This document shows positions 24,862 to 53,154 of a stretch of 64,000 nt of DNA, in pieces; positions within the stretch are counted from its first letter, which is position 1; each line of letters opens with the position of its first letter. This DNA is from Akkermansia muciniphila (GTDB lineage Bacteria > Verrucomicrobiota > Verrucomicrobiia > Verrucomicrobiales > V1-33): assembly GCA_943333275.1 (NCBI GenBank), contig CALQSQ010000001.1, positions 1-64,000 on the forward strand. The letters are read 5' to 3'. Below the pieces are notes generated by a model, which saw nothing but the letters and a program-made list of their open reading frames with translations, had not been told where the DNA came from and searched no databases. Made by a program: the position numbers and the translations under genes.

Positions 24862-25640
24862 GCGCATCGCCGCCATCACCGTCGCCCTGGGCCATGGAAT
24901 GCCACGACCTTACGGTGACATATGACCGCAAGCCCGTGCTTTATGGCATCGATTGCTGCATTCCGGCGGGTTCCCTGGTTGGTGTGCTGGGTCCCAACGG
25001 AGCAGGTAAATCAACCCTGCTGAAGGCGGCGCTGGGACTGATTCCGGTGTCAGGGGGTTATGTGGAAATGTTTGGTCAGCCTCAGGGCAAGGTTTCCCGT
25101 CGGGTCGGTTATGTGCCGCAGCGTGAATCTGTGGATTGGGATTTTCCGGTCACGGTCATGGATGTCGTGCTGATGGGCCGCTATGGGCGACTGGGTTTGT
25201 TCCGGCGTCCCCGCAAGGCTGACCGGGAGATTGCCGAGCGGTCCCTGGAAAAAGTGCAGATGCTGGGATACGCCGACCGGCAGATTGGCCAGTTGAGTGG
25301 CGGCCAGCAACAGCGCGTATTCCTGGCCCGGGCGCTTGCGCAGGAATGCGATCTATACCTGATGGATGAACCCTTCGCGGCTGTCGATGCAGCGACGGAG
25401 CGCGCGGTCATCGGGCTGCTCCGGGAAATGCGGGAGAGCGGGAAAACCGTGCTGGTCGTCCATCACGATCTGATCACTGCTCCCACTTATTTCGACCGGT
25501 TGCTCCTGCTCAACCTGCGCTGCGTGGCCTATGGCCTGACATCGGAAGTGTGGACTCCTGAAAATTTACACCAAACCTACGGAGGCCAGATGACCGTCCT
25601 CAGTGAACTGGCGCTGCAATCCGTGGCCAAGGTCCATTAG
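24858..25640 (+). CDS. Mn/Zn ABC transporter ATP-binding protein
   Basis: A 260-residue ABC ATPase: Walker A GPNGAGKST near residue 45, Q-loop region YVPQRESVDWDFPVTV, signature LSGGQQQR near 146, Walker B LYLMDEPFAAVD near 169 and H-loop VVHHD. The sequence around the Q-loop is typical of metal-type transporters (MntB/ZnuC/TroB). It powers import through the two downstream permeases. It overlaps the binding-protein gene by four bases, and the first permease starts 13 bases after its stop. Confidence 0.95.
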   Translation: MSASPPSPSPWAMECHDLTVTYDRKPVLYGIDCCIPAGSLVGVLGPNGAGKSTLLKAALGLIPVSGGYVEMFGQPQGKVSRRVGYVPQRESVDWDFPVTVMDVVLMGRYGRLGLFRRPRKADREIAERSLEKVQMLGYADRQIGQLSGGQQQRVFLARALAQECDLYLMDEPFAAVDAATERAVIGLLREMRESGKTVLVVHHDLITAPTYFDRLLLLNLRCVAYGLTSEVWTPENLHQTYGGQMTVLSELALQSVAKVH

Positions 25641-25653
25641 CCAAAGCTGCGAT

Positions 25654-26955
25654 ATGGAATTCCTCCTGATTTGCGCCACCTGGATCGAAAATGCCGGAAG
25701 GTTTCTCACCTTGGAGGACGAGTTTGTGCGGGCCTCCGTGCTTGGTGCCGTTTTGCTGGGGCTGAACTGTGGTGCGTTAGGATCGTTTCTGGTGGTGCGC
25801 AGGATGTCACTGGTTGGGGATACCCTTTCCCATGCCGTGCTGCCGGGAATCGTGGGTGGCTATCTGTGGAATCAAACAAAAGATCCGGTGGCGATGCTCA
25901 TCGGGGCAATCATTGCCGGCGTGATCGGAACGATGCTGATGAATGCCATCACCTCCACGACGAAAATCAAGAGTGATGCGGCCCAGGGGATTATTCTTAC
26001 AGTCTTTTTTGCGATTGGGGTATGCCTCATCAGTCTGCTGCCACCTGGAAACAAGGGCGGCGTGGACCGCTTTTTGTTTGGTCAGCTGGCGGCGGTCAGC
26101 GCGCAGGACATTTCCTGGTTGAGCAAAGCCACGGCCATCACGGGGCTGAGTTGCCTGCTGGGATACCGTGGGCTGTTGGTGCTGAGTTTCGATCCTGTCT
26201 TTGGCCGGCTTTGCGGCCTGCCCATGCGTTTTCTCCACTATGGGCTCATGCTGCTGACCACGCTGGCCATCGTCGTGGCCATGGAATCGGTGGGAGTGGT
26301 GCTGGTGTCGGCAATGCTGGTGATCCCCGCATCGGCGGCCTCACTGCTCACGCAGCGCCTGCATTGGCTGATTCTGATGGCGGGGGCCTTTGGGGTGACG
26401 GCTGGATTGCTGGGGACATTTTTATCATTTGTTGGCGACCAGCCCACGGGGCCGATGGTGGTGATTGCAGCTTCGGGAATATTTGCCCTGGCCTTCGGTT
26501 TTAGTCCGCGCACGGGACTGGTCACCGGCTGGTGGTCGGCCTATAAATGGAACCGCCAGGTGGAGATGGAGAACGATCTGAAGTCCATTTACCGGCATTG
26601 GGAGGACCAGCATGGGGAAGAAAGCTCCGATGCCCAAGCCCATGCTTTTTCACCCAACGAATTTGTCCCTCTGAAAAAACTTCGCAGTCTTCAAAGCCAG
26701 GGGCTGGTGGAGGTGTCCGAACTCGGCGGCGACCGGTGGAAATTTACCACCAGGGGACTTGCCGCCGCACAGCGGGTCGTGCGGCATCACCGACTCTGGG
26801 AATTGTATTTATCCCGCCGCGCCAGCTATCCAGCGGATCACGTTCATGATGACGCGGAAAAGATCGAGCACCTGATGGACGATGATCAGGCTCGGCGACT
26901 CGCCGAGCAACTGGGCAATCCCACCTGCGATCCCCACGGTCGGCCCATCCCATGA
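25654..26955 (+). CDS. metal ABC transporter permease fused to a DtxR-like domain
   Basis: A 433-residue protein from the ATG at 25654; upstream codons in the frame overlap the ATPase gene. Residues ~20-290 are an ABC-3 family permease with about eight hydrophobic segments (GSFLVVRRMSLVGDTLSHAV, VLVSAMLVIPASAASLLTQR). Residues ~300-433 are cytosolic and resemble the second half of a DtxR/MntR protein: a partial winged helix (LKKLRSLQSQGLVEVSELGG) and a dimerisation/metal-binding segment (HHRLWELYL, then DHVHDDAEKIEHLMDDD). It is not a sequencing fusion with the separate mntR-like gene, which is intact and divergent. The domain may sense cytosolic metal and gate transport (inference). Its stop overlaps the second permease by four bases. 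Confidence 0.9.
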   Translation: MEFLLICATWIENAGRFLTLEDEFVRASVLGAVLLGLNCGALGSFLVVRRMSLVGDTLSHAVLPGIVGGYLWNQTKDPVAMLIGAIIAGVIGTMLMNAITSTTKIKSDAAQGIILTVFFAIGVCLISLLPPGNKGGVDRFLFGQLAAVSAQDISWLSKATAITGLSCLLGYRGLLVLSFDPVFGRLCGLPMRFLHYGLMLLTTLAIVVAMESVGVVLVSAMLVIPASAASLLTQRLHWLILMAGAFGVTAGLLGTFLSFVGDQPTGPMVVIAASGIFALAFGFSPRTGLVTGWWSAYKWNRQVEMENDLKSIYRHWEDQHGEESSDAQAHAFSPNEFVPLKKLRSLQSQGLVEVSELGGDRWKFTTRGLAAAQRVVRHHRLWELYLSRRASYPADHVHDDAEKIEHLMDDDQARRLAEQLGNPTCDPHGRPIP

Positions 26956-37659: not shown

Positions 37660-37806
37660 GTGATTGGGAAAACTAGCCCTATCTCTCCGCCCGCCTCAGC
37701 CACCCGCAAGTGGAAAATAGCCCGGTTGGGGTAAGGGGCCCCAGCTCAGGGCCGCGCCGTAAATACGCTCTTGCAGCAGGGCACGACATCCGCAGGTTGA
37801 ACCCCT

Positions 37807-38376
37807 ATGCCCCCTTCCGTTCGACCTCCTTCCGCCAAAGAGCGTCTGCTGGACCTGTTCATGCCGTTGGAGTTTTTCTACGGCCAGCGCACCCAGCCCA
37901 TGCCCGCACCCGCGTTGATTCCAGGAGAGCAAATGCCGGAGCCCTACCGTTATTTGCTGGTGCATGAGAGCGACATGACGCCTCGGCTGAGGGAACACCA
38001 CGGGGCGCAGATCGGGTTGGAGGTTATCGAGCGGCAGGTGAGTGAAAATTTCATCATGCGGCTGGTGGTGCTGCATCGGGAGGACACGGGTAAGCCCGTG
38101 GAGATCGGAGCCATCGGGATTCAACTGGAGGGCTTTGATGCACAGACGCGCACAGCCATTTTGGAGGGCAAAACTCCGCTCGGAGGAATTTTGGAAACTG
38201 CGGCCATTTTGCACGAGAGCCATCCCAAAGCTTATTTTTCGCTGGAGGCGGACGCCTATCTCGCCGGTCTGCTGCACCAACCCATCGGCACGAGGCTCCA
38301 CGGTCGCTGCAATGCGCTCTCCCATCACGATGGTCTGGTCTTTGCCGATATCGTCGAGATTCTCCCCCATGTCTGA
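37807..38376 (+). CDS. chorismate-lyase-fold-like protein, function uncertain
   Basis: A 189-residue soluble protein. The middle resembles the UbiC/UTRA (chorismate lyase) fold by pattern: YLLVHESDMTPRLREHHG, LEVIERQVSENFIMRLVVL, VEIGAIGIQLEGF and ILEGKTPLGGILE. Such proteins can form 4-hydroxybenzoate from chorismate or act as ligand-binding domains. Without an alignment it cannot be decided whether the active-site Arg and Glu are kept. It overlaps the following cysteine-cluster gene by eight bases, so the two are probably translationally coupled. Confidence 0.5.
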   Translation: MPPSVRPPSAKERLLDLFMPLEFFYGQRTQPMPAPALIPGEQMPEPYRYLLVHESDMTPRLREHHGAQIGLEVIERQVSENFIMRLVVLHREDTGKPVEIGAIGIQLEGFDAQTRTAILEGKTPLGGILETAAILHESHPKAYFSLEADAYLAGLLHQPIGTRLHGRCNALSHHDGLVFADIVEILPHV

Positions 38377-38803
38377 CAGGACGCCAGCCGCCGCGGAAAT
38401 CGCAGCCGAGGTGCAGGCCATCTACCGCGAACTGGCCGCGCGTCCTCTCGCCCGGCAGTGCACGGGGATCTCGGAATGCTGTCAATTTGGCCGCACCGGC
38501 CGCACGCCATTTATCACGAAAGGCGAGGCCCTCGTTGCCAGCCAGGGGCTCCGGGCGAGTGGTCGCAGGAACCTGCCTCCAAGTGTGGAGGGAGCCTGCC
38601 CCATGTTGAAATCCGACGGGAAATGCATGATTTATCAACACCGCCCTTTTGGATGCCGAACGCATTTCTGCAAAGCCGCCGGAGGACCGGCTCCGCGCGA
38701 AATGGTCCGCGACCTCATTCAGCGACTGGAGGCCATCGATGCGCGTCTGGGGGGCTCCGGCGGGGTGAATCTGCCTGCGGCCATGAAATCCAGTCTGGGA
38801 TAG
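38369..38803 (+). CDS. YkgJ-type cysteine-cluster protein
   Basis: A 144-residue protein from the ATG at 38369, overlapping the previous gene by eight bases. Cysteines are spaced as in the YkgJ family that binds an Fe-S cluster or zinc: CTGISECCQFG near residue 30, then CPMLKSDGKCMIYQHRPFGC and THFC. Function is unknown for this family. This is one of three such proteins in the window and is clearly shorter than the two around the Hcp genes. Confidence 0.75.
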   Translation: MSDRTPAAAEIAAEVQAIYRELAARPLARQCTGISECCQFGRTGRTPFITKGEALVASQGLRASGRRNLPPSVEGACPMLKSDGKCMIYQHRPFGCRTHFCKAAGGPAPREMVRDLIQRLEAIDARLGGSGGVNLPAAMKSSLG

Positions 38804-38863
38804 GCCGGGAATCTCCGGGAAATTCTTCTGCTGGCATTCATCAAGGCCGTGCTATGATGAACT

Positions 38864-40192
38864 GTGTTTGAGATTCGTGAAAAACCCCAATTGGTCGAAA
38901 AGGTCCTGCTGATCGGCGCCTATTTCGACCGTCGTGAAGAAGTGGATGCCGCCAGCCTCCTCGAGGAACTGCGTGAACTGGTCACCACCCTGGGACTGCC
39001 CATCGCCGATGCCATTCTGGTGCGCGTTAGCGAGGGCAACGCCCGCTATCTCATGGGCAAGGGCAAGGCCAAGGAACTGATCGATCTGGCAAAATCGCTC
39101 GGTTGTGATTGCATCATTTTCGACAATCCGCTCACGCCCGTTCAGCAGCGGATCTGGGAGGAGGATTCCGGCATGGCGGTCATCGATCGCGAGGAAGTCA
39201 TTTTGGACATTTTCAACATGCGGGCCAAGACCCGCGAGGCACGCCTGCAGGTGGATCTGGCACGCATGACGTATTCGCTCCCCCGACTGTCCCGGATGTG
39301 GGGGCACCTGGATCGTCAGGGTGGTGGCGGAGGAGGTGGAAGTTCTCCTGCTGCACGTGGTGAGGGTGAGAGCCAGTTGGAAATCGACCGTCGTCTCGCC
39401 CGCAAACGCATCGACATCGCCAAGCGCGAACTGATCGAGGTGAAGACCCGGCGGGAAACGCAGCGCAAGGAACGCATGCGCGATCCCATGCCGCATGGGG
39501 CCATCGTGGGTTATACGAATGCCGGCAAGAGCACCCTGCTCAATGCCCTGACCGGCGCGGACGTCCTCGCCGAGAATAAACTTTTCGCCACCCTGGATAC
39601 CACCACCCGCAAGTTGCAGCTGCCCGATGGCCAACAACTGCTGGTCACGGATACCGTGGGATTCATCCGAAAATTGCCGCACCGCCTCGTCGAATCCTTT
39701 AAGGCCACGCTCGAGGAGGCCACCATGGCTGATTTTCTCATCCACGTCATCGATGCCAGCGGACCACGCGCCCTCGAATTCTACGAAACCACCATGGCGG
39801 TGTTGAACGAACTCGGCGCTGACACCAAAAAAATGCTCGTCGTCCTCAACAAGATCGACCTCGTGCCGGACCAGACCAAACTGCAGGAGCTCACCTCCCA
39901 TTTTCACAACCCGGTCCTGCTCTCGCTGCGCACTGGCGAGGGCATGGACGATCTGATGCACAAACTCAGCGTCATGCTCCTGGACAAGGCCGTCCGTCTC
40001 CAACTCCGCCTCCCCCAGGCCCGCATGGACCTCGTGGCCCTCATCCATCGCGAGGGTAAACTCATCTCCCAGGAATATGACGACAACGACCTCCTCATCA
40101 CCACCACCGTTCCCAAACGCTGGGAATCCAAATTCACCCCCTACCGCGTGGATGAAGCGGGGGTTGCTTCATTGGGAATAAGAAGTTGCTGA
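38864..40192 (+). CDS. hflX: ribosome-associated GTPase HflX
   Basis: A 442-residue GTPase starting at a GTG (38864); an in-frame TGA at 38858 excludes a longer form. The N-terminal HflX domain includes LMGKGKAKELIDLAKSLGCD and a Gly-rich linker preceding GEGESQLEIDRRLARKRI. The G-domain has GYTNAGKSTLLNALTGADVL (~216), DTVGFIRKLPHRLVESFKAT and LNKIDLVPD. HflX splits stalled or hibernating 70S ribosomes under stress. Its last 24 bases overlap the 3' end of the convergent NRPS gene. Confidence 0.96.
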   Translation: MFEIREKPQLVEKVLLIGAYFDRREEVDAASLLEELRELVTTLGLPIADAILVRVSEGNARYLMGKGKAKELIDLAKSLGCDCIIFDNPLTPVQQRIWEEDSGMAVIDREEVILDIFNMRAKTREARLQVDLARMTYSLPRLSRMWGHLDRQGGGGGGGSSPAARGEGESQLEIDRRLARKRIDIAKRELIEVKTRRETQRKERMRDPMPHGAIVGYTNAGKSTLLNALTGADVLAENKLFATLDTTTRKLQLPDGQQLLVTDTVGFIRKLPHRLVESFKATLEEATMADFLIHVIDASGPRALEFYETTMAVLNELGADTKKMLVVLNKIDLVPDQTKLQELTSHFHNPVLLSLRTGEGMDDLMHKLSVMLLDKAVRLQLRLPQARMDLVALIHREGKLISQEYDDNDLLITTTVPKRWESKFTPYRVDEAGVASLGIRSC

Positions 40193-43100
40193 TCCAAGTG
40201 CAATGGCTGCCGTGGCAGCGTGATCGCGAATGTAGCTGTGATGCGTGCCCGGAACTGGGTGAAGAACCGGATCTGATACTGCCAGTCGGCTCCATGATCC
40301 AATGACATCACCCCGACTGCGAATTTCCTCGGAAAGAATAAGATGCAATGGAAAAGGCAGCGCACGGGGCTTCCAACCTAATAGCAGCCGGTAATATCGC
40401 CGGACGGGAATAGGAAGATCATCCATTGGATGCGGGGCGGATGAGTTGCGGAACCGTTTCAGCACGGTTGCCAGCGGGCTGTCACGAAGAATGCGGTGTT
40501 TCAAATAGCCGCCAATGGAAGGCACGAGGGTATCGAGAATGATTAACCGATCCACATCCCAACCTGATGCATTGGCCAGCAGCGCGATTTCGGCGGCCAC
40601 GACCCCAGCGATACATTCGCCAGCAATGGTAAGGTTGCCCGATGGTTGGTGTTGCCTCATTTCCATGAGGATTTTCATAGCATGGTGATGGAGCGTAGCT
40701 GAAGGCCCTTCCGGGTTGTCCATCACTCGTGAACGCACCCCGATCACGGTCCGATCCATGGGGATTCCAGCCAAAAGTCCGGCGAACACCAAGAGTTCGT
40801 TTTCCCCGCCATATCCGCCCGGAACAAGAAAGAGTGGAGGTTCACCATTCCCATGGCGGATGACCATGAGGAATCCATCCTCGCCATGGGGCGCGAAATC
40901 GCACGCCGCCAGGGCCAATGGAGTTGGGTGTTCGAATAAAATGCGCACTGGAACCTCCGTTTCCCACTCTGCTTCAAGTTTGGCGATGAGCTGCAGCGCC
41001 AGCAGGGAGTGACCGCCGATTCGGAAAAAATGATCATCGCGTCGAATCGACGCTCGTCCAAGGACTTCAGAGAAACAGCGAATCACTGTCAATTCGCGAA
41101 GATTTTGGGCATCCCCTCCCGCCATTTCCGCATCTTGGAGAGGGGTGTCGATCAGGAGTTGCTTATTCACCTTTCCGTTTGAGCTTAGAGGCAAACTTTC
41201 AATCAGATGAATTCTGGCCGGCCACATGTAGTTCGGTAGCCTTGACTCCAGATATTGCTTTGCGGCAAGGGGGACGGATGCGTCGCCCGTAATTTTTGCA
41301 GTCACCCACGCACAAAGCTCCAGCGTGCCGTCGCGACCCGGGCGCGCGGCCACTGCGGCATCTGCGACCGTGGGACCTTGAGTAAGCGCGTTTTCAATTT
41401 CCCCCAGTTCGATCCTAAATCCCCTCACTTTCACCTGATCATCACTGCGTCCATGAAATTCCAGAGTTCCGTCCGCCAGCATCCTTCCCAAGTCGCCGGA
41501 GCGATACCAGCGGTGCCCATCCATCCAGACGAAGCGCTCATCCGTCAGCCTTGGACGGTCAGCATATCCCAATGCGAGGCAGTGGCCGCCAATCCATATC
41601 TCCCCCATGGTTCCACGTGGTTCCGTCCGGCCATTTTCATCTGCCACCATAATTTCAACCCCATCAATGGGCGTCCCCAGTGACGGGAGGCTGGGCCAGC
41701 TGGCGGGGGGGCCGATCAATTCGTATTCCGTAACCACATGGGTTTCGGTGGGTCCGTACTGATTGCGCAGGTGAATTTTATTCAATCGCCCAAAGAACTC
41801 GCGCATCGCCGGGGTGATGTGCAGTTGCTCGCCGGCAGTATTAATTTCGCGAAGACAGGAGGGAATGCGATTTTTGCGTGTTCCCGTCTCGGCCAGGTGT
41901 TTCAATGCAACGAATGGCAGGAAGAGTCGCGTGATTTGGTGCCGTTCCAAATGGTTAAGCAGGCGGGAGGGGTCCAGTCGGCGATCTTCCTCGACCAAAA
42001 CCACCGCTCCGCCGGAAAGCCATGTGGAGAAAAATTCCTGGAACGCCACGTCGAAATTTAGCGAGGCGAACTGCAGCGTTCTGGAGGCATTGGATCCGGA
42101 ACGTGCGCATTGCCAGTCCATCAGGTTGCAAATCGGTTGGTGCGGCATTTCCACACCCTTGGGCATCCCGGTGCTGCCGGACGTATAGAGAACGTAGAGG
42201 GGAGCGTCACCGGTGAGCTCTGCGGGTACTGCAAAGATGCCGACCTCGTCAGTCTGGATCCAGATGATTTCTTCACCGAATTTCCACGCTGGCAAATTCG
42301 TTCCGATGACTGCGAAACGCAGTGCAGCTTCCTGGCATATCGTCCTCAGCCGCACATCAGGATAACCGGGGTCAAGTGGCACGCAGGCAGCCCCAGTTCT
42401 CAGCACCGCCAGCAGGGCGATACCGACGTCAAATCCGCGCTCCAGAAAGATGCCTACCCGGTCGCCGGGCCTCACCCCGCGTGCTTGCAATGCCCCGGCA
42501 AGGCAGGCCGACCGATCGATGAGTTCACCATAGGAAATGGATTTTTTCCCGAAGATCATCGCCGGCGCCGGCAGCCAGTTGGACGATTGCGCGAGAATTC
42601 TTTCCTCGATACGCAGGCCCTGACTTCGGACAGGAGGGCCGAGTGCACGGGATGGCGCAGCAGGTGATGGTAAAGCATCAGGATCGGACAGGGCTTTGGA
42701 GGCAATTGCCAGCAAATCGATGGCCATAGTCTCCACGTCCTGTGATTCAAACAGGTCCGTGTTGTAAATCAGCGAAAGGTCGAGGCCCTCTGCTTGTTCG
42801 TAAAAATGCACCTCCAGATCAAACCGCACCCGTTGAATTTTTGTCGGCGACCAATCCGCCTGAAGTGCCTGAAAGCGTGGCGGATTCATTTCCGCGCTCT
42901 GCAACGCGAAGAGAATTTGAAATAATGGATTGCGGCTGAGGTCTCTGGGAAGCTGCAACTGGTCCACCAGCAAGTCGAAGGGCATGGCACTGTGGGATAG
43001 CGCGGGGATGACGCATTCCCGAACGCGGGATAGCAACTGGCGGAAGCTAATTCCGCTCCCAACGTCCAATGGCAGCGCGACCATGTTGACGAAAAATCCA

Positions 43101-46100
43101 ATGAGATTCTCCGCGCCGGAAATGGTGCGGTTGGCATGGGGGGTTCCAATGACAAATTGATCCCGGTCAATCTGGCGTCGCATCCATTGAGCGAACATGC
43201 TCAGCAGGACCATGAAGGGTGTAGATTTTTCTTCCGAGGCAAGCTCTCTAACCCGTGTGGCAATTTCCTTTGTCCATTTGGTTCGGACCACCGAACCCAC
43301 AAAGGTTGCCAGGGCCGGACGAGGTTTGACAAATGGAAGGTCGAAAGGGTTGACGTTGCGAAGCGCGTGCCTCCAGAATGAGGTCATGGAAATGCATTCC
43401 CGGCTGTCGAGCCAGGCCCGTTGTGAGCGGGCATAGTCCGCGTAACTCAGGGTGAGAGGGGGCAGTGGCATGCCATCGTAGAAAGCCGCCAATTCCTTGG
43501 CGAATACCCCCACTGACCAGCCATCTGCGACAATGTGGTGGAAAGTCACTTGGAGAACATATTCCGATTCACCTCGCTGCTCAAGGCAGGCGCGAATAAG
43601 GGGTGTGGTGGAAAGTTCAAAGGGCCTGAGCGCTTCCTCATCCAGGCTTCCGATTGCGGTGCTTAATTCCAAGGCGGCGGCAGGTTGAACCTGCGGCACC
43701 GGGCGACCGGAGATGGAAATTATGCCTGTGCGCAGGACGGGATGTCGATCCAGAATCTCATTCAGTGCCCTGTTCAAACGTGGCACATCAAGATCCCCCC
43801 TTAAAACCAAACGGCATGGAATATTGTAGGCTTCCTTGGTGGTGATTAATTTATCGACGAACCACAACCGTTGTTGAGCGAGTGAAATGGCCGGGGGCAG
43901 TGAGCGATCGGGGAGTGGAAGCGCTTCCGAAGCATTTGCCGCCATGATTGCTGCCAGACGTCGGGGAGTGGGTGCCTGAAACATCCATTTCACGGGAACG
44001 GACCGTTGCAGTTGTTTCTCTAAATCCAAGGCGATCCTGACGGCAAGTAGCGAGGTGCCCCCGAGGCCAAAAAAATCGTCATCCAGGCAAACATTCCGGC
44101 AGAGGAATTCAGCGATTGTCTCCCGCACCGATTTCTCCAGAGAGGACATCGGCTCATCCAAGGGGGGGCGTTGGTTTCGTGTCACTGGCAACTGGCTGCG
44201 CAGAAGCTTTCCTGAAGGGCTGAAGGGGAATTGCGAGGCCAGGAAAATTTCACTGGGCACCATGTAATCGGGTAATACCGTTCCCAGGTTCTTTCGAAGG
44301 GCGGCAGGCCATTCCGTTTCCAGACGTGCAGCCATCGGATTGTTGATCTCTGGTTCCAGACACCAGGAAGGCAGGGAGGCATGGCTTTCCCCATCCATTT
44401 CATTGTGGCAGCCAATTTCCTGCTCAAGCCTCTCCTGACCTGCACCGGTAGTTTCAAAGTTCTGGAGTGGCACGCCGGATTTCCCTAGCACAGCCTGGTA
44501 GCGATACTTCATGAGTTCATTTTTGCCCCGGCCCTCCTTTGCATCCACTCGCTGCAGCACCAAGCCGAGCGAGGGTGCTGTTCTTGCAAACCATTTGGGG
44601 GAGATACACAGCTCCCTCTCCAGGAACACGGCTCGGCGCGTCCGCTCCCGCCATTCACTCAGGCTGAGTGACGGAGTTCGAAGCCGTTCACGCACGGCGT
44701 GAAAAACTGGCAGCAGGGCCATGCTGCGGATGTCTCCCAGGAAAATTTTCCCATCCGGCGTCAGGATCGTGGCGGCCCGCTTCAAAACCTGCTCAAGGAA
44801 GCTGGCGCTGGGGAAATACTGAACCACTGAATTCAGAATGACGAGATCAAATTCTCCAGCGGTGAATGAGGACAAATCTTCTGCCTCCGTTTTGAGGATC
44901 CTAACGTGATGCCACTGCTGGTGATCGGCAAATCTGCGGGCGGCTGAAATGGCGGCGGTGGAGAAATCAGTCCCGATATAGTGACTGACATGGGGGGCGA
45001 TTCGGCTCATGATCAAACCGGAGCCGCATCCAATTTCCAACACGCGGGTGGGCTGCAATCGCAGTATTTGGCACTCTGCATCCTCCAGCCATTCCATCAT
45101 TTCGTTCTCCGGGATGGGTGTTCCGGTGAAGCTGTCCATCCATCCGGAAAAGTCCGGTTCGTCGGATTCAGTCTGCGGATATGCCGCCTCGTAGAGTTCC
45201 CGCCATTCGGCCAACTGGGCTTGTGCGAACTGTTGGGCGGCATTTTCCGAAGGTTGGACCCATGCGAAGATTCGCTCCCCGCGTGCATCCGCAGCGGCGA
45301 GATGAACCCCGGGCATGGTCAGGAGCGCAGATTCAATTTCACCAAGTTCGATGCGGAATCCACGGACTTTGACCTGTTGATCCATCCTGCCAAGAAATTG
45401 CAATTCTCCTCCGGGGAGTCGGCGGACATTGTCACCGGTTCGATACAATCTTGGCCCGGGTAGTGCCTCGTAAGGGTTGGGAACGAAACGATTTCTGGTC
45501 AAAGTTTCCTGATTCCAATAACCACGGGCCAGGCCCGGCCCGGCGAGCAGCAGTTCGCCACTGCCAAAGATGGGGGAGAGATTGCCGTGCGTATCCACAA
45601 CGACCGTTCCCATGTTGGGAATCGCCCTGCCAATGGTGGGCGGGAGGTCGGACGGCTGGCATTCTTTGACTGTTGCCCAGACGGTTGCCTCGGTCGGTCC
45701 GTAGGCATTGAAGAAGCGGCGCCCCGGCGCCCATTGTCCGGGGAGTTCAGCCGGACACGGTTCACCAGCCACGATGATGACTTGCAATTCGGGCAATGGT
45801 TGTTGCGGGACCAATTGCAGGGCGCCCGGTGGGAGTGTCACATTGGAAATTTTGCGCTCCAAAAGAAAATTACCCAGCGGATACCCTGGCATCAAATCCT
45901 CGCGCGAGGCCATGATGAGTGCGGCACCGGCGCGCCAAGCCATGGTGATTTCAAAAATGGAGGCATCAAAGCTAATCGTCGCAAATTGCAGGACCCGGTC
46001 ACGTTCGGTCGCTGCAAATACTGCCTGTTGCGCCTCCGCCAGATTCAGGAGGCCTGCGTGCGTTACGGCTACGCCCTTTGGCTGGCCCGTCGAGCCCGAG

Positions 46101-47875
46101 GTATAGAGGATGTAGGCAACCGAATTCTTCTGGTTTTCAAGCGCAGGCGCTGATGCCATGGCCACTGCCTGTTGTACGAAATCACGATCCACCGTCAGAG
46201 TCGCCCCGCTGTCCTGCCGCATCCAATGGAGCCGTGACGCGGGCAATAGTGGGTCCAGCGGAACATAGGTTGCGCCAGCGCGCAGGATTCCCAGCAAGCC
46301 GATAATCAATTCAGGGCATCGTTCCATTTCCAATGCCGCAATTTGGTCCACACCCAATCCCTGATTCCGCAGACGATGGGCGACTCCATTTGCCTGGGTT
46401 GTCAATGCAGCATAGGTGATGCGTTCCGACTCCCATTCGATGGCTGTGCGATCCGGAAATTTCCGGGCCGTCTCCGCCACCATTTCATCCCAGCGTTGAA
46501 AATTTGATGGAGAGCCCAGGGGAGCATCACTGAGCAGCAACTCATTCTCCGCGGCGGTAAGAAATGGAGCCGTGGCGAGGCTGAGGTCCGGATTTTGGGC
46601 CATGGAAGCCGCCAGCAGAGAAAAATGCCTGCTCATTTGCGCGGCCAGGGCAGGATCAAATAAATCGGAGGCGAAGATGAAAAATCCCTCCACTCCGCTG
46701 TCCTTCTCCCAGAGATGAGTTTCCCAGTCCACGCGGGTTGTGACCCGGCCTGATTGTTCGTGTTTTACTTTCCAGCCGGGGACCTTCCATGATTCGGCCT
46801 CGGAATTATGCAGCGCGACCATTACTTGGAAAATCGGGTTGCGGCTGAGATCGCGATCAGGCTGGATTTCTTCAACCAGTCGTTCGAAGGGGAGATCCTG
46901 ATGAGCATAGGCATCCAGGCAACTCTTGCGGATACGCCTCAAGAGTTCCCGGAAAGTGGGTTTTCCTTCCAGGCTGGTTCTCAGCACCAGACTGTTCACG
47001 AAGAATCCGATGAGCGATTCAGTTTCCCGAAGCTGGCGGTTTGCAATGGGGGATCCGACAATCATGTCCTCCTGCCCGGTGTAGCGATGCACCATGGTGA
47101 GAAACACTCCCAGCATGGCCATGAAGGGCGTGGCATCTTCCCGGGCAGCGAGCAGTTTCAGCCTTGTCCAATCGTCCGCCGCAATGCGGATGGGCTCCAA
47201 ACCGCCTTCAAAGGAAAGTTGCGGGGGGCGTGGCTTGGTGCGTGGGAATTCGAATTGTTCATATCCCTCCAGTGTCCTCCTCCAGAAGCGCACATGGGAC
47301 TCATAAGTTTCACCCACCAACTCCTCCCTCTGCCAGGCAGCAAAATCCGGATATTGAATTTCAAGTGAAATCAACGCGGGCGGTTCGCCCCGGCTCTCCG
47401 CCTGATATAGTTCGGAAAGCTCTCTGGTGAATACCTCCATGGACCAGCCATCCGCCACCAGATGGTGGATGGTGAAGAGCAGCCCCCATTCGTCTGCGGA
47501 AAGTTGCAAAAGGCGTGCACGCCACAACTGGGCCCCCCCCAAAGGGATCGGTGCCTGGCGTTCCTCCTCCTTCAATCGCTGAACGTCCTCCTCAAGTGCC
47601 TGCAGAACCGGAAGTTTGACGGATACATGTTCGACAACTCGAAGCCTGGGTTTGCCATCACGTTCAATCATGGAGGCCCTGAGCATTTCCTGGCGATGCA
47701 CCAATTTTTTCAACGCAGCCTCCAACCATCCAGGGTTGACGGCTCCCTGAATCCGCCAGCAACGGCAGATGTTGTAAAACGGATTCCCAGGTATTAGTTG
47801 ATGCAGAAACCAGAGACGTTCCTGGGCAAAGGATGGATCAAATTCGAAACAAGGGGATGGCGTTGGATCATCCAT
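40169..47875 (-). CDS. NRPS: C-A-[N-MT]-T-C-A-T-TE (modules 3 and 4)
   Basis: A 2568-residue synthetase. Order: condensation domain (HHLVADG near 135-142), adenylation (YTSGSTGQPKG near 590) interrupted after its A8 motif by an N-methyltransferase (DFSGWMDSFTGTPIPENEM, VLEIGCGSGLIMSRIAPHVS near 945), carrier (GGTSL near 1272), condensation (HHIVADG near 1445), adenylation (YTSGSTGMPKG near 1900), carrier (GGHSLL near 2288) and thioesterase (GECIAG, Cys2421; GTHHSY near 2540). Binding-pocket residues read by eye: DAFTIAAVW (aromatic type) and DVQFNAQVV (closest to Pro codes I know). No epimerase is seen, so an all-L tetrapeptide with an N-methylated third residue is expected. The start lies three bases after the upstream synthetase stop. 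The TE nucleophile is Cys, not Ser. Confidence 0.93.
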   Translation of the reverse strand: MDDPTPSPCFEFDPSFAQERLWFLHQLIPGNPFYNICRCWRIQGAVNPGWLEAALKKLVHRQEMLRASMIERDGKPRLRVVEHVSVKLPVLQALEEDVQRLKEEERQAPIPLGGAQLWRARLLQLSADEWGLLFTIHHLVADGWSMEVFTRELSELYQAESRGEPPALISLEIQYPDFAAWQREELVGETYESHVRFWRRTLEGYEQFEFPRTKPRPPQLSFEGGLEPIRIAADDWTRLKLLAAREDATPFMAMLGVFLTMVHRYTGQEDMIVGSPIANRQLRETESLIGFFVNSLVLRTSLEGKPTFRELLRRIRKSCLDAYAHQDLPFERLVEEIQPDRDLSRNPIFQVMVALHNSEAESWKVPGWKVKHEQSGRVTTRVDWETHLWEKDSGVEGFFIFASDLFDPALAAQMSRHFSLLAASMAQNPDLSLATAPFLTAAENELLLSDAPLGSPSNFQRWDEMVAETARKFPDRTAIEWESERITYAALTTQANGVAHRLRNQGLGVDQIAALEMERCPELIIGLLGILRAGATYVPLDPLLPASRLHWMRQDSGATLTVDRDFVQQAVAMASAPALENQKNSVAYILYTSGSTGQPKGVAVTHAGLLNLAEAQQAVFAATERDRVLQFATISFDASIFEITMAWRAGAALIMASREDLMPGYPLGNFLLERKISNVTLPPGALQLVPQQPLPELQVIIVAGEPCPAELPGQWAPGRRFFNAYGPTEATVWATVKECQPSDLPPTIGRAIPNMGTVVVDTHGNLSPIFGSGELLLAGPGLARGYWNQETLTRNRFVPNPYEALPGPRLYRTGDNVRRLPGGELQFLGRMDQQVKVRGFRIELGEIESALLTMPGVHLAAADARGERIFAWVQPSENAAQQFAQAQLAEWRELYEAAYPQTESDEPDFSGWMDSFTGTPIPENEMMEWLEDAECQILRLQPTRVLEIGCGSGLIMSRIAPHVSHYIGTDFSTAAISAARRFADHQQWHHVRILKTEAEDLSSFTAGEFDLVILNSVVQYFPSASFLEQVLKRAATILTPDGKIFLGDIRSMALLPVFHAVRERLRTPSLSLSEWRERTRRAVFLERELCISPKWFARTAPSLGLVLQRVDAKEGRGKNELMKYRYQAVLGKSGVPLQNFETTGAGQERLEQEIGCHNEMDGESHASLPSWCLEPEINNPMAARLETEWPAALRKNLGTVLPDYMVPSEIFLASQFPFSPSGKLLRSQLPVTRNQRPPLDEPMSSLEKSVRETIAEFLCRNVCLDDDFFGLGGTSLLAVRIALDLEKQLQRSVPVKWMFQAPTPRRLAAIMAANASEALPLPDRSLPPAISLAQQRLWFVDKLITTKEAYNIPCRLVLRGDLDVPRLNRALNEILDRHPVLRTGIISISGRPVPQVQPAAALELSTAIGSLDEEALRPFELSTTPLIRACLEQRGESEYVLQVTFHHIVADGWSVGVFAKELAAFYDGMPLPPLTLSYADYARSQRAWLDSRECISMTSFWRHALRNVNPFDLPFVKPRPALATFVGSVVRTKWTKEIATRVRELASEEKSTPFMVLLSMFAQWMRRQIDRDQFVIGTPHANRTISGAENLIGFFVNMVALPLDVGSGISFRQLLSRVRECVIPALSHSAMPFDLLVDQLQLPRDLSRNPLFQILFALQSAEMNPPRFQALQADWSPTKIQRVRFDLEVHFYEQAEGLDLSLIYNTDLFESQDVETMAIDLLAIASKALSDPDALPSPAAPSRALGPPVRSQGLRIEERILAQSSNWLPAPAMIFGKKSISYGELIDRSACLAGALQARGVRPGDRVGIFLERGFDVGIALLAVLRTGAACVPLDPGYPDVRLRTICQEAALRFAVIGTNLPAWKFGEEIIWIQTDEVGIFAVPAELTGDAPLYVLYTSGSTGMPKGVEMPHQPICNLMDWQCARSGSNASRTLQFASLNFDVAFQEFFSTWLSGGAVVLVEEDRRLDPSRLLNHLERHQITRLFLPFVALKHLAETGTRKNRIPSCLREINTAGEQLHITPAMREFFGRLNKIHLRNQYGPTETHVVTEYELIGPPASWPSLPSLGTPIDGVEIMVADENGRTEPRGTMGEIWIGGHCLALGYADRPRLTDERFVWMDGHRWYRSGDLGRMLADGTLEFHGRSDDQVKVRGFRIELGEIENALTQGPTVADAAVAARPGRDGTLELCAWVTAKITGDASVPLAAKQYLESRLPNYMWPARIHLIESLPLSSNGKVNKQLLIDTPLQDAEMAGGDAQNLRELTVIRCFSEVLGRASIRRDDHFFRIGGHSLLALQLIAKLEAEWETEVPVRILFEHPTPLALAACDFAPHGEDGFLMVIRHGNGEPPLFLVPGGYGGENELLVFAGLLAGIPMDRTVIGVRSRVMDNPEGPSATLHHHAMKILMEMRQHQPSGNLTIAGECIAGVVAAEIALLANASGWDVDRLIILDTLVPSIGGYLKHRILRDSPLATVLKRFRNSSAPHPMDDLPIPVRRYYRLLLGWKPRALPFPLHLILSEEIRSRGDVIGSWSRLAVSDPVLHPVPGTHHSYIRDHAATAAIALGSATSYSQ

Positions 47876-47878
47876 GAT

Positions 47879-50800
47879 TCAGACAGCCTGTCGTGGCAAT
47901 CTTCGAATGCGGCGGCTTTCGCTGGCCTGCGATAATAAACGAGCAACCGCAGCCACGGAGGACTGCTTCATGACTTGTGCAAGTGACAGGTCCGTCCCTG
48001 TCTCCGCGCGCAAGCGCGCCACCCCGCGGGTCAGGAGCAATGAGTGACCACCCGCCTGAAAAAAAGTATCGTGTCTTCCAATCCATTTTAATCCCAGTAA
48101 CTCCATCCAGATTGCTGCGACAAGAATCTCCCGTTCGCCCATGGGTGGATCGCTGGTTGTCGGGGCATCAGGGTTGGGAGAGGGCAGGGCGGATCGATCT
48201 AGTTTCCCATTCTGATTCAGAGGCAATTGGTCCATCGCGACAATATGTGCAGGCAGCATGTAAGCGGGTAATTTTTCGTGCAGCCATTTCTGAACGGAAT
48301 CGAGGAGGACATGCGGGGCAATCCAGGCGACAAGGCATTCCTTGACGAGTCCCACCACGGCCTGGCGGATTTGTGGATGTTGCAACAGCACGGATTCGAT
48401 CTCCCCGGGTTCAATGCGGAATCCGCGAATTTTCAGCTGAGTGTCTGTGCGGCCGAGGAATTCAAGCAGTCCATCTGAGCGCCAGCGAACCATGTCTCCG
48501 GTGCGATAGAGTCGCTGTGGCCGATGGAAAATAAGGGTGTGCATGTGGAATTTATCCGCGGTCAGTTCAGGGTCATTCAGGTAGCCAAGCCCCAATCCCT
48601 CTCCGCCCAGGTGCAATTCGCCTGGTTGACCGATGGAACACATTTGCAGCCTTTCATCCAGGACCACGGCCTGGGTGGCTTTGAGCGGCCTTCCGATGGG
48701 GATTGACGCCCAATTTTCTGGCAGGGGTCTGGGGATTTCATAACAAGCGGCAAAGGTGGTGCATTCGGTCGGTCCATAGCCGTTGACGATGGTTGCATCC
48801 GGGAACAAATTCTGCGCCTTGATGATGTGTGGAACGGACAAGGCTTCACCTCCGGTTAGTATTTTAACGACGCCCGTCAGTATCTCCGGAGCGGTGTCCA
48901 CGACCTGATTGAAAAGGGCGGCGGTAAGCCAGCACGTCGATACCTTTCCCTCCCGGATCGTGTCCCCAAGCAGTTTATAATCTGGAAGCACGTCACGATG
49001 AATCACCACACAGCCACCGTGCAATAATGCCCCCCAAATTTCGAAAGTCGATGCATCAAAGGAAAGGGCGGCGAAATGGAGGATGCGTTCACTGGGCCCA
49101 AGCAAACCTTCTGGAAGGCCGAGGACAAGTCGGAGGATGGCCCGGTGTGGAATCACTACCCCCTTGGGGATTCCCGTGGAACCTGAAGTGAAAAGCACGT
49201 AGGCCGGACTTTCTGCATTGATGGTGACGGGGGGCGTGGGGCCTTCATGCTCGGGGATCGGACCTGCTATGATCAGCTTGACCGCAGCAGTTTTGGTCAG
49301 GAGATCCTTGCGCGCAGTCGGCCAGTCCGGATCCATCGGCAAATAAGCCGCCCCTGCTTTTAAAATGCCCAGCATCGCCACGATCGTCTCCATCCCCCTT
49401 TGCATGGCGAGGCCGACAAACTCCCCGGATTGCACGCCTTGATCGCGAATCCAACGGGCGGCGCCGTTTGAGCGTTGATCCAATTCCGCATAGGTCATGG
49501 TGCGCCCATCCTGCCAGAGCGCTGGTTCTTCAGGGTGAATGTTCGCAATCCGCTGGAAAAGGGCGGGGACTGTTGGAGGTGGATTGTTTGGAAGTGAACC
49601 TCCCTCAAGCCATTCGGTCGGGGGTGGCTCCGCAAGGGAGAGATTTCTCCAAGCAGCTTGCGGTGAATTCAGGCTCGCCTGAGCGAGGTTGAGAAACTGT
49701 CGGCTCATTCGTTGGCCTGACTCCGCAGAGAAGACGGTCGTATTGTATTCCCAGAGCATTTCCAGGGGAGTGGCCTGCCCGGGAATGACCAGCAGGACGA
49801 TGTCGAATTTGCAGGTTCCAGCCCCCAGGCCGTGCGTAGCGGTCACTTTTAAGTCGGAAAGTGAACTGGTGGGAAAGGGTTGATCATACAAATCAAAAAA
49901 CACCGTGAAGAGCTTGCGATCGGAGCCAAGCCGGTGGATGACCCTGTCATACGGAGCATGCTGGTGATCTGAGGCCTCCAGCGAGGCGGTTTTTGCCAAG
50001 GCCAGCAAATCGGCAAAAGTTTCCGCCGCGGTTACGTCGACCCTCAGGGCCACCGTGTTGATGGCCATGCCAAGCATGCGTTGGAAATTGGCGCCCGGGC
50101 GATTTTGAAATCCCGCCCCGATTACGACGTCATTCTCGCCGGTCAGGCGTTGCATGAATGCCTGAAATACTCCCAGCAGCCACATGAAAGGAGTGACACG
50201 GAACTCGCTGCTGTGGGCTTGCAATTGATGGCAGAAGTGGTCATCGAGAGGAATGCGCAACTGAGCACCTGCGTAGGGGTCAGACTGGGATCGGGGGAAA
50301 TCGCAGGGCAGTTGTGGCGGCGTTGCAACGGAATTGAGCTTATCCACCCAATAGGAAATGTCCTCCTCCCAGAGCTTTAATTGGGAGCGCTCCCATCTGC
50401 AAAATTCGAGAAACTGCGGTGCGGGCGGCAGATGCAAATCTTCCCCCCGCTGGCTTGCATCGTAAAGGGCAAACATCTCATCAAGAAAAATCCCGTATCC
50501 CCATCCGTCATGGAGCAGGTGGTGTTCGGTATGGAGCATCCAGGTCTCGGCAGGGGCAATCTGGTAGAAAAACCATTTGGCCAGCGGGCCCTTTTCAACA
50601 TCGAAGGGAATGCTGAGTACCTCTTGAATATGGTGCTCGGCTTCACGCACGGTGCATGGGATGCAAACCACTGGAAAGGGCTCATAAGACTGCACGCGCT
50701 GTTCCACGGTCCCACTGATGGAGAGAAATACCGTGCGGAGCACTTCATGTCGCTTCACCATCTGATTCAATGCGCGTTCCATCGCCACGGGATCAAAGGC

Positions 50801-52669
50801 CCCCGTGAACTTAAAGAGTGACTGAAAGCGATAGGCATTGTTGCCGGGGTGCAGTTGCTCCAGGAAACATACCCTTTCCTGCGCGAACGACAGCGGATTT
50901 CCTTCAGCACATGACAGTGGCTTCGATGAAACCGCCGTGCCGCTTCGGCTTTGGATGGCCTTGGCAAAGGCCCTGACGGTGGGCAATGCGAACATTTGTG
51001 TGTAGGGGATCGATACCCCAAAGGCTCCCTGAATTCGCCACGCCAGCTGGGCCAGGGCCAGGGAATGAAAGCCTGCCTGCAACAGATCATCAGACGGTCC
51101 CAAGCCGGGGAACGCAAGGATTTCGCTGCAAAATTGGAGAAGGGTTCTTTCCTCAGGAGTCTCGCCCGGCTCGGTTGTGTGGGCGATGAAGACCTCTGGC
51201 TTGGGCAGAGCCTCCCGATCCAGCTTTCCATTGGCATTGAGGGGCCATTTCCGAACGAGGGTGAATCCTGCCGGCATCATGTAGTCCGGCAAACGTTCGG
51301 AAATAAATTCGCGCAGGATTTGCGGAGTTGGCGTCAGTGCGCCCGTCGCTATGAAATATGTCCAGAGTCGCGTCTGCTGCAGGGCATCGAGATCCGCGAT
51401 GACGACGCACGATCCGACTCCCGGATGCTGGCTCAGGATGAATTCGATCTCGCCTAATTCCACGCGAAAGCCGCGGATCTTCACCTGGAAATCCATGCGT
51501 CCGAGGTATTCGAAATTGCCGTCCTCAAGCTGGCGGGCACGATCTCCGGATCGGTAAACGCGATGGAGCGATCCGTTGATTGAAAGCTCAATGAATTTCT
51601 CGCGCGTCAACGCTTCACGACGGAGGTATTCGCGACCAAGGCAGGAACCGCCAATGAGCAGTTCTCCGCTCTGCCCGCGTTCCACCATTTGAAGGTCTTC
51701 ACCAACAATATACAAATCCACTCCGGGGGTGGCTTTGCCGATGGGAGGATTGTCAGGATATGGAGGGTCCCCGGCTTCCCAGATGGTTTGATAAATGGTC
51801 GTTTCCGTAGGGCCATACGCGTTAAAAAATCGTCGGCCGCCCGTTTTCCACTTGGTGATGATGCTTCCGGTAAGTTTCTCTGTTCCGGCCACGATCACTC
51901 TGAGTTTTGGCAGGCCCTCAGCAGGCAGGATCTGCAGGACGGACGGCGAGAGCAGCGCGATGGTTACCTGCTGTTCAAGCAGCAATTCCGCCAGCGACGG
52001 CCCCGGCATCACCTGATCGCGTGTGCCGATGACTAAAGTCGCCCCTGATGCCAGGGCGACGAAAATTTCCCAAATGGAGGCATCAAATCCAAAGGACGCG
52101 AATTGGAGAATGCGATCCTCCGGCCCGATGGCCATTTGCTGACATGCATGTGGAATCAGAGCCAGCAATCCCGCGTGCGGAAGCGATACCCCTTTGGGCT
52201 GGCCGGTGGAACCGGAGGTGTAAATGACATAGGCAAGGTCCGAGGGATCTGTTTCGATCTCAGGACCTGTGGCTTCGAGGGCGTCGGTCATCGCCTGAAG
52301 TTCAACTGCAGCCCCAAGACGGTTCGCCATTTCCAGATGATGCGGGTGGGCAACGATGACTGGCAGTTGAGCGTCCTTGACCATGAATCGGAGGCGTTCC
52401 TCCGGTAGTTCAGGGCTGAGTGGGACGTATGCCGCCCCGGCCTTGAGAATTCCCAAAATTCCTGCCACCATTTCCATGGAACGAGGGGCAAGGAGACCGA
52501 CCAACTGACCTCTCCGGATCCTGCTCCCTGAGAGTTCTTTGGCGAGATGATTCGCCCTGCCATCAAGTTCGCCGTAGGTCCACCGGCTCGATCCCTGGAC
52601 TACCGCGACAGCGTCGGGGGACAGTGAAGCTTGGAGTTCGAAGAGGCGATGGATTCCAGTCGGATGCAC
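47879..52669 (-). CDS. NRPS: A-T-C-A-T (loading module and module 2)
   Basis: A 1596-residue synthetase beginning directly with an adenylation domain, so it should start the assembly line. Order: A1 (YTSGSTGQPKG near 150, NANGKLDREALP near 478), carrier (QAGFHSLALAQ near 535, with GFHSL instead of the usual GGHSL), condensation (HHLLHDG near 717), A2 (FTSGSTGIPKG near 1163) and carrier (FFQAGGHSLLL near 1540). Pocket residues read by eye: A1 DAWLIAAIY, similar to the GrsA Phe code; A2 DAFWLGGTF, a typical Val code. It starts with GTG whose G is shared with the TAG stop of the upstream gene, so translation is coupled. No MbtH, epimerase or 4'-phosphopantetheinyl transferase is seen nearby. Confidence 0.93.
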   Translation of the reverse strand: MHPTGIHRLFELQASLSPDAVAVVQGSSRWTYGELDGRANHLAKELSGSRIRRGQLVGLLAPRSMEMVAGILGILKAGAAYVPLSPELPEERLRFMVKDAQLPVIVAHPHHLEMANRLGAAVELQAMTDALEATGPEIETDPSDLAYVIYTSGSTGQPKGVSLPHAGLLALIPHACQQMAIGPEDRILQFASFGFDASIWEIFVALASGATLVIGTRDQVMPGPSLAELLLEQQVTIALLSPSVLQILPAEGLPKLRVIVAGTEKLTGSIITKWKTGGRRFFNAYGPTETTIYQTIWEAGDPPYPDNPPIGKATPGVDLYIVGEDLQMVERGQSGELLIGGSCLGREYLRREALTREKFIELSINGSLHRVYRSGDRARQLEDGNFEYLGRMDFQVKIRGFRVELGEIEFILSQHPGVGSCVVIADLDALQQTRLWTYFIATGALTPTPQILREFISERLPDYMMPAGFTLVRKWPLNANGKLDREALPKPEVFIAHTTEPGETPEERTLLQFCSEILAFPGLGPSDDLLQAGFHSLALAQLAWRIQGAFGVSIPYTQMFALPTVRAFAKAIQSRSGTAVSSKPLSCAEGNPLSFAQERVCFLEQLHPGNNAYRFQSLFKFTGAFDPVAMERALNQMVKRHEVLRTVFLSISGTVEQRVQSYEPFPVVCIPCTVREAEHHIQEVLSIPFDVEKGPLAKWFFYQIAPAETWMLHTEHHLLHDGWGYGIFLDEMFALYDASQRGEDLHLPPAPQFLEFCRWERSQLKLWEEDISYWVDKLNSVATPPQLPCDFPRSQSDPYAGAQLRIPLDDHFCHQLQAHSSEFRVTPFMWLLGVFQAFMQRLTGENDVVIGAGFQNRPGANFQRMLGMAINTVALRVDVTAAETFADLLALAKTASLEASDHQHAPYDRVIHRLGSDRKLFTVFFDLYDQPFPTSSLSDLKVTATHGLGAGTCKFDIVLLVIPGQATPLEMLWEYNTTVFSAESGQRMSRQFLNLAQASLNSPQAAWRNLSLAEPPPTEWLEGGSLPNNPPPTVPALFQRIANIHPEEPALWQDGRTMTYAELDQRSNGAARWIRDQGVQSGEFVGLAMQRGMETIVAMLGILKAGAAYLPMDPDWPTARKDLLTKTAAVKLIIAGPIPEHEGPTPPVTINAESPAYVLFTSGSTGIPKGVVIPHRAILRLVLGLPEGLLGPSERILHFAALSFDASTFEIWGALLHGGCVVIHRDVLPDYKLLGDTIREGKVSTCWLTAALFNQVVDTAPEILTGVVKILTGGEALSVPHIIKAQNLFPDATIVNGYGPTECTTFAACYEIPRPLPENWASIPIGRPLKATQAVVLDERLQMCSIGQPGELHLGGEGLGLGYLNDPELTADKFHMHTLIFHRPQRLYRTGDMVRWRSDGLLEFLGRTDTQLKIRGFRIEPGEIESVLLQHPQIRQAVVGLVKECLVAWIAPHVLLDSVQKWLHEKLPAYMLPAHIVAMDQLPLNQNGKLDRSALPSPNPDAPTTSDPPMGEREILVAAIWMELLGLKWIGRHDTFFQAGGHSLLLTRGVARLRAETGTDLSLAQVMKQSSVAAVARLLSQASESRRIRRLPRQAV

Positions 52670-53154
52670 TAGAGCAATTCAGCGATCTGAATTCGGGGAG
52701 GAGTAAGGTATTTAAATCCTCCGTGCGAATGCGGTATATTTAGCATGAAATAGGTGACGGGCTTTCCTGTATCCGAATTTACAAGCTGGCCATGGAAAAC
52801 TCTGCGATGATCGGCCGCCCGATCCTTATATTCGACAGAGAGGAAAAAGAGCTCCCTCAGGGTTTTCTCCAGTCGCAAACCGAGGTCTGAGAGCAGGGAT
52901 GCCACGGGAGTCCACATTTCCTCAAGAGAGTCCATGTAGGCGGGATTTGGCGACCAAGTGGGAGTCTCGCCCTCCCCGCGTGGACCGACGGCGGATGCGT
53001 AGAATCCAGCCTCCGAGGAGCGATCAAACAGCTTCGCATAATGAGCCACCTTGGCCTCGTCACCGATGATTGCCGCACATGACTGGCTGAGAATTGAATT
53101 CGTGGTATGTTGCAGCTTTGCAATATCGAGGGGTGTTCGGGTGGCTAGTTCCAT
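52669..53154 (-). CDS. unknown protein heading the NRPS operon
   Basis: A 161-residue soluble protein of unknown family: helical N-terminus (LDIAKLQHTTNSILSQSCAA), a middle with Gly/Glu/Pro (GPRGEGETPTWSPNPAYM) and a C-terminus with a His-containing pattern (HRRVFHGQLVNSDTGKPVTY, FMLNIPHSHGG). It is not MbtH (no NxExQxSxWP motif) and not an obvious phosphopantetheinyl transferase. The stop shares one base with the NRPS start, so its product is made with the synthetase. It may tailor, release or regulate the peptide, but nothing in the sequence decides this. A strong -35 and a -10 lie directly before its ATG. Confidence 0.75.
   Translation of the reverse strand: MELATRTPLDIAKLQHTTNSILSQSCAAIIGDEAKVAHYAKLFDRSSEAGFYASAVGPRGEGETPTWSPNPAYMDSLEEMWTPVASLLSDLGLRLEKTLRELFFLSVEYKDRAADHRRVFHGQLVNSDTGKPVTYFMLNIPHSHGGFKYLTPPRIQIAELL

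Follow-up and report, generated by a model that had tools for sequence, protein, structure and literature searches.

The window, the whole 64,000-nucleotide stretch of Akkermansia muciniphila DNA that was analysed, contains three uninterrupted ORFs arranged in tight series on the minus strand at 40169-53154, as identified by ORF analysis. These encode a 161-aa protein and two NRPSs, here called NRPS1 and NRPS2 (Table 1). In the junction sequence TAGTG, the stop codon of the 161-aa gene and the GTG start codon of NRPS1 overlap, and NRPS2 starts 3 bases past the stop of NRPS1, so the three genes probably form one translationally coupled operon. A preliminary description of this DNA had given coordinates that already spanned the 161-aa gene, which it left undescribed.

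Table 1 Genes and domains of the operon, in order of transcription
Feature	Position	Strand	Evidence
161-aa gene, first in operon	52669..53154	-	ORF; sub-threshold PF19486; coding score; junction
NRPS1, 1596 aa, A1-T1-C1-A2-T2	47879..52669	-	ORF, Pfam, motifs
A1, code DAWLIAAIY, aromatic-like, uncertain	51197..52654	-	Pfam, alignment
T1 carrier domain, Ser536, AGFHSL	50954..51145	-	Pfam, motif, carrier scan
C1 condensation domain, HHLLHDG	49628..50896	-	condensation scan, motif, tree
A2, code DAFWLGGTF (Val)	48185..49594	-	Pfam, alignment, published code
T2 carrier domain, Ser1543	47933..48121	-	motif, carrier scan
NRPS2, 2568 aa, C2-A3(nMT)-T3-C3-A4-T4-TE	40169..47875	-	ORF, Pfam, motifs
C2 condensation domain, HHLVADG	46532..47833	-	condensation scan, motif
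A3, code DAFTIAAVW, aromatic-like, methyltransferase between A8 and A10	44192..46477	-	Pfam, alignment, motifs
Embedded N-methyltransferase core, VLEIGCGSG	44684..45058	-	Methyltransf_12 E 1.4e-16
T3 carrier domain, Ser1275	43949..44128	-	motif, carrier scan
C3 condensation domain, HHIVADG	42674..43888	-	condensation scan, motif
A4, code DVQFNAQVV, Pro-like	41147..42553	-	alignment, published code
T4 carrier domain, Ser2290	40901..41086	-	motif, carrier scan
Thioesterase, GECIAG, Cys nucleophile	40220..40837	-	PF00975 E 8.8e-9; alignment to solved TEs

Domain order and specificity codes

Pfam searches of NRPS1 and NRPS2 detected three condensation (C), four AMP-binding (A) and four carrier (T) domains, one methyltransferase within the third A domain, plus a thioesterase (TE) at the C-terminal end. 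All matches were highly significant, that of the TE being the weakest, and the E-values of the AMP-binding matches (1e-136 to 1e-151) rule out chance matches. In genome-wide condensation and carrier scans, the number of domains at 40169-53154 was likewise exactly three for C and four for T. Core motifs A3, A5, A7 and A8 are present in the A domains, HHxxxDG is present in all three C domains, and the carrier serines lie at residues 536 and 1543 of NRPS1 and 1275 and 2290 of NRPS2. The sole motif irregularity is in T1, where AGFHSL replaces GGxSL with the attachment serine kept. The proteins thus have the repeated A, T and C modules and intact catalytic motifs of a modular NRPS, and the order A-T / C-A-T / C-A(N-MT)-T / C-A-T-TE given in the preliminary description was upheld by Pfam, genome-wide scans and motifs alike.

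In NRPS2, motif A8 lies at residue 829, the methyltransferase at 940-1064 and motif A10 at 1218. An insertion between A8 and A10 that carries the SAM-binding motif VLEIGCGSG defines an N-methylating A domain, and no difference was seen between the third A domain and others of this kind in insertion place or SAM motif; together with the Methyltransf_12 match, this bears out the embedded N-methyltransferase proposed earlier. The best PDB match of NRPS1 is LgrA (linear gramicidin synthase subunit A), which also has two A-T units joined via a C domain. LgrA carries a formylation domain at its start, whereas NRPS1 starts straight with an A domain; the predicted residues also differ, and the similarity is moderate only.

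The pocket codes were re-derived by aligning the four A domains with LgrA and with one another, using the established GrsA pocket positions, and all four matched those previously read by eye (Table 1). The codes of A1 and A3 resemble those of aromatic residues; of the earlier Phe-like (A1) and aromatic (A3) assignments the codes stand, and the residues are called from this resemblance only. A literature search gave no match to the exact codes other than that for Val, and the predictions for residues 1 and 3, whose codes have no exact published counterpart, are weak. The A2 code is identical to a published Val code, in agreement with the earlier Val assignment (PMC9113097). The A4 code had been described as Pro-like with two changes; it is indeed Pro-like, and differs by one change from the published Pro code DVQFVAQVV (PMC9113097), so that the predicted Pro-like specificity is better supported than the earlier wording implied. 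The change is Asn for Val at position 299, which could alter specificity.

All three condensation-family matches in the window are C-type by position and motif, and none is E-type. In a small tree limited to the condensation-family domains of this genome, with low support values near the domains of the window, these three C domains were placed apart from the C domain directly following an E domain, which weakly supports an all-L chain. Elsewhere in the genome, a 4760-residue NRPS frame (contig C32, L049 2762-17041) has two closely similar condensation domains with only a carrier domain between them.

Genomic context and distribution

Downstream of the operon lies a convergent hflX gene (38864-40192) that overlaps the end of NRPS2 by 24 bases, and upstream lie a DUF5069 gene and an aquaporin gene (Pfam). 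In a genome of the same family (G003), hflX lies about 3 kb from the aquaporin-DUF5069 pair, and the interval holds no NRPS operon; in one of the same genus (G001), they are on separate contigs, with no NRPS homologs in the stretches read. Because these relatives carry the flanking genes without the operon, those genes are not part of the cluster. The operon was either inserted at this site or lost in the relatives. Its GC3 (0.56-0.62) is below that of most flanking genes (about 0.70), which is no decisive mark of acquisition, since another NRPS gene of the genome (0.614) and some other genes of the window are equally low.

Two minus-strand ORFs were rejected as continuations of the operon, both without a family match: 38852-40048 is antisense to hflX, and 37696-38421 overlaps an ORF on the opposite strand that is likewise without a match. 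Farther away in the window are a Porin_5 putative porin gene (529-2430) upstream of a gene for a 3760-aa protein with a C-terminal filamentous-haemagglutinin DUF3739 domain (3999-15281), and a single ORF (25603-26955) that fuses an ABC-3 metal-transport permease (PF00950) with an iron-dependent-repressor C-terminal domain (PF02742).

Genome-wide searches confirmed that the window holds no epimerase, MbtH or PPTase gene, as reported earlier. The genome has an MbtH gene on contig C32, next to a different NRPS cluster, and contig C49 carries one Sfp-type PPTase (243 aa) and one AcpS, typed from sequence length and motifs. Since the genome encodes both MbtH and PPTase in trans, their absence from the window should be no obstacle to function and does not imply a defective cluster. 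Among the genes examined, no exporter, resistance gene or regulator adjoins the operon, consistent with the previous statement that a dedicated exporter is lacking.

When 142 genomes of the order were searched with NRPS1, the best match apart from itself was a 1894-aa A-T-C-A-T-TE NRPS (G281, contig C243). Its 32% identity extends over almost the whole of NRPS1, and like the operon it has a C-terminal TE. It differs from the operon in having two modules only, a Ser-type TE (GYSFGG) and its own adjoining PPTase gene, and no N-methyltransferase was found in it. Plasmid NRPSs were 32-37% identical to NRPS2, the best among the matches listed. No relative of NRPS2 was found in the genome_contigs collection by six exact peptide patterns, which make only close relatives visible. 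With no orthologous cluster found across the 142 genomes of the order, genome_contigs and plasmids, the cluster appears to be an orphan within the collections searched.

The first gene was examined separately. Its frame has the highest coding score (codon bias) of the six frames, and its product matches Pfam PF19486 (DUF6022) over profile positions 46-132 of 155 at 23.2 bits (E 6.5e-5), below the gathering cut-off of 25. Relatives of the protein were found neither in 57 relatives nor in plasmids, genome_contigs, viral contigs or PHROGs; its Pfam family was not found in 388 genomes of the phylum, and a literature search gave no paper naming DUF6022. A single-sequence structure model reached a pLDDT of 69, and SnoaL/ketosteroid-isomerase-like proteins account for several of the top PDB matches, none with an E better than 0.04 and with a TM of about 0.3, so that an NTF2-like or SnoaL-like fold is only a lead from modelling. 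Our best guess is that it acts in tailoring or assists release. It seems unlikely that it is a small accessory enzyme of a type new to NRPSs, such as an NTF2-like tailoring or release enzyme, that gives the tetrapeptide an undescribed modification.

Thioesterase and predicted product

The GECIAG elbow of the TE identifies Cys2421 as the nucleophile, a feature that the preliminary description had missed, and alignment to solved TEs gives Asp2448 and His2545 or 2546 as its triad partners. By its sequence, the domain is a Cys-nucleophile type I TE with a GxCxG-type elbow and the triad Asp and His. The conserved Asp lies 27 residues past the Cys and aligns with the standard position I after beta-6. 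In SulM and ObiF, Cys TEs that form a beta-lactam and a beta-lactone, the triad Asp follows beta-7, whereas in AB3403, an uncharacterised protein, it follows beta-6, its usual place (PMC11298585). AB3403 (4zxh, from Acinetobacter baumannii), one of the few PDB matches of the TE, shares both the Cys nucleophile and the position I Asp with it, whereas SulM and ObiF share the Cys but not their position II Asp, although the similarity to Cys-nucleophile TEs is low (E 1e-4).

Other TEs of the phylum have Cys elbows as well (GYCLGG, GECQAS), as does an 863-aa AMP-ligase/carrier/thioesterase protein of the same genome (GECGAG; contig C12, L045 6085-8676), so a Cys nucleophile is not unusual here. The gene for the 863-aa protein adjoins a sulfatase gene, and its TE is among those closest to the TE of the window; an 852-aa frame in another genome (G015, L038) also has a similar TE, with the elbow GECQAS.

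Taken together, we consider it likely that the product of the three-gene operon is a small N-methylated tetrapeptide, assembled in the ordinary collinear way. NRPS1 would load residue 1 with a free amine, there being no starter C domain, and couple it to Val; NRPS2 would add an aromatic-like residue, which its embedded methyltransferase would methylate, followed by a Pro-like residue. We infer that methylation falls on N rather than on C or O. The carriers would be activated by the Sfp-type PPTase encoded on another contig, and the TE would take the chain on Cys2421 and release it by hydrolysis or head-to-tail closure. The most likely product, as predicted from the sequence, is an all-L X-Val-N-Me-X-Pro tetrapeptide, either linear or cyclised on release. 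The domain order, the embedded N-methyltransferase and the codes thus support the X-Val-N-Me-X-(Pro-like) product of the preliminary description.

Within this collinear assembly, the release step alone would differ if the TE released a cyclic tetrapeptide or a truncated diketopiperazine. The N-methylated residue 3, the Pro-like residue 4 and the free amino terminus would favour turns and head-to-tail closure, but the TE sequence holds no predictor of cyclisation and AB3403, the nearest solved Cys TE to share its triad layout, has yet to be characterised (PMC11298585). Twelve-membered all-L rings are moreover strained, and we regard such release as possible, though less probable than not cyclising. 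The Cys nucleophile might also suggest a small strained ring, a beta-lactone or beta-lactam as with ObiF or SulM. We rejected a TE of that type, since the conserved Asp aligns with position I and not with position II, and the match to the AB3403 layout gives no indication of small-ring formation; position 4 lacks a predicted beta-hydroxy or diamino residue and Cys TEs recur in NRPSs of the phylum, which makes this outcome very improbable.

We also think it quite unlikely that the operon has become an inactive relic or lies silent. No sigma-70-like promoter was found upstream, no regulator or exporter is adjacent, and the T1 motif is unusual; however, the promoter scan covered the sigma-70 consensus only, and the uninterrupted frames over about 13 kb with intact catalytic motifs argue for recent selection.

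Ordinary in its machinery, the operon is a fresh orphan example of a well-known kind of NRPS, and existing knowledge of how NRPSs work is unchanged by it. It gives a DUF6022-like gene that is uncharacterised a firm genetic setting. It also offers a compact (13 kb), complete and apparently species-restricted peptide pathway, of a size that suits direct heterologous expression.
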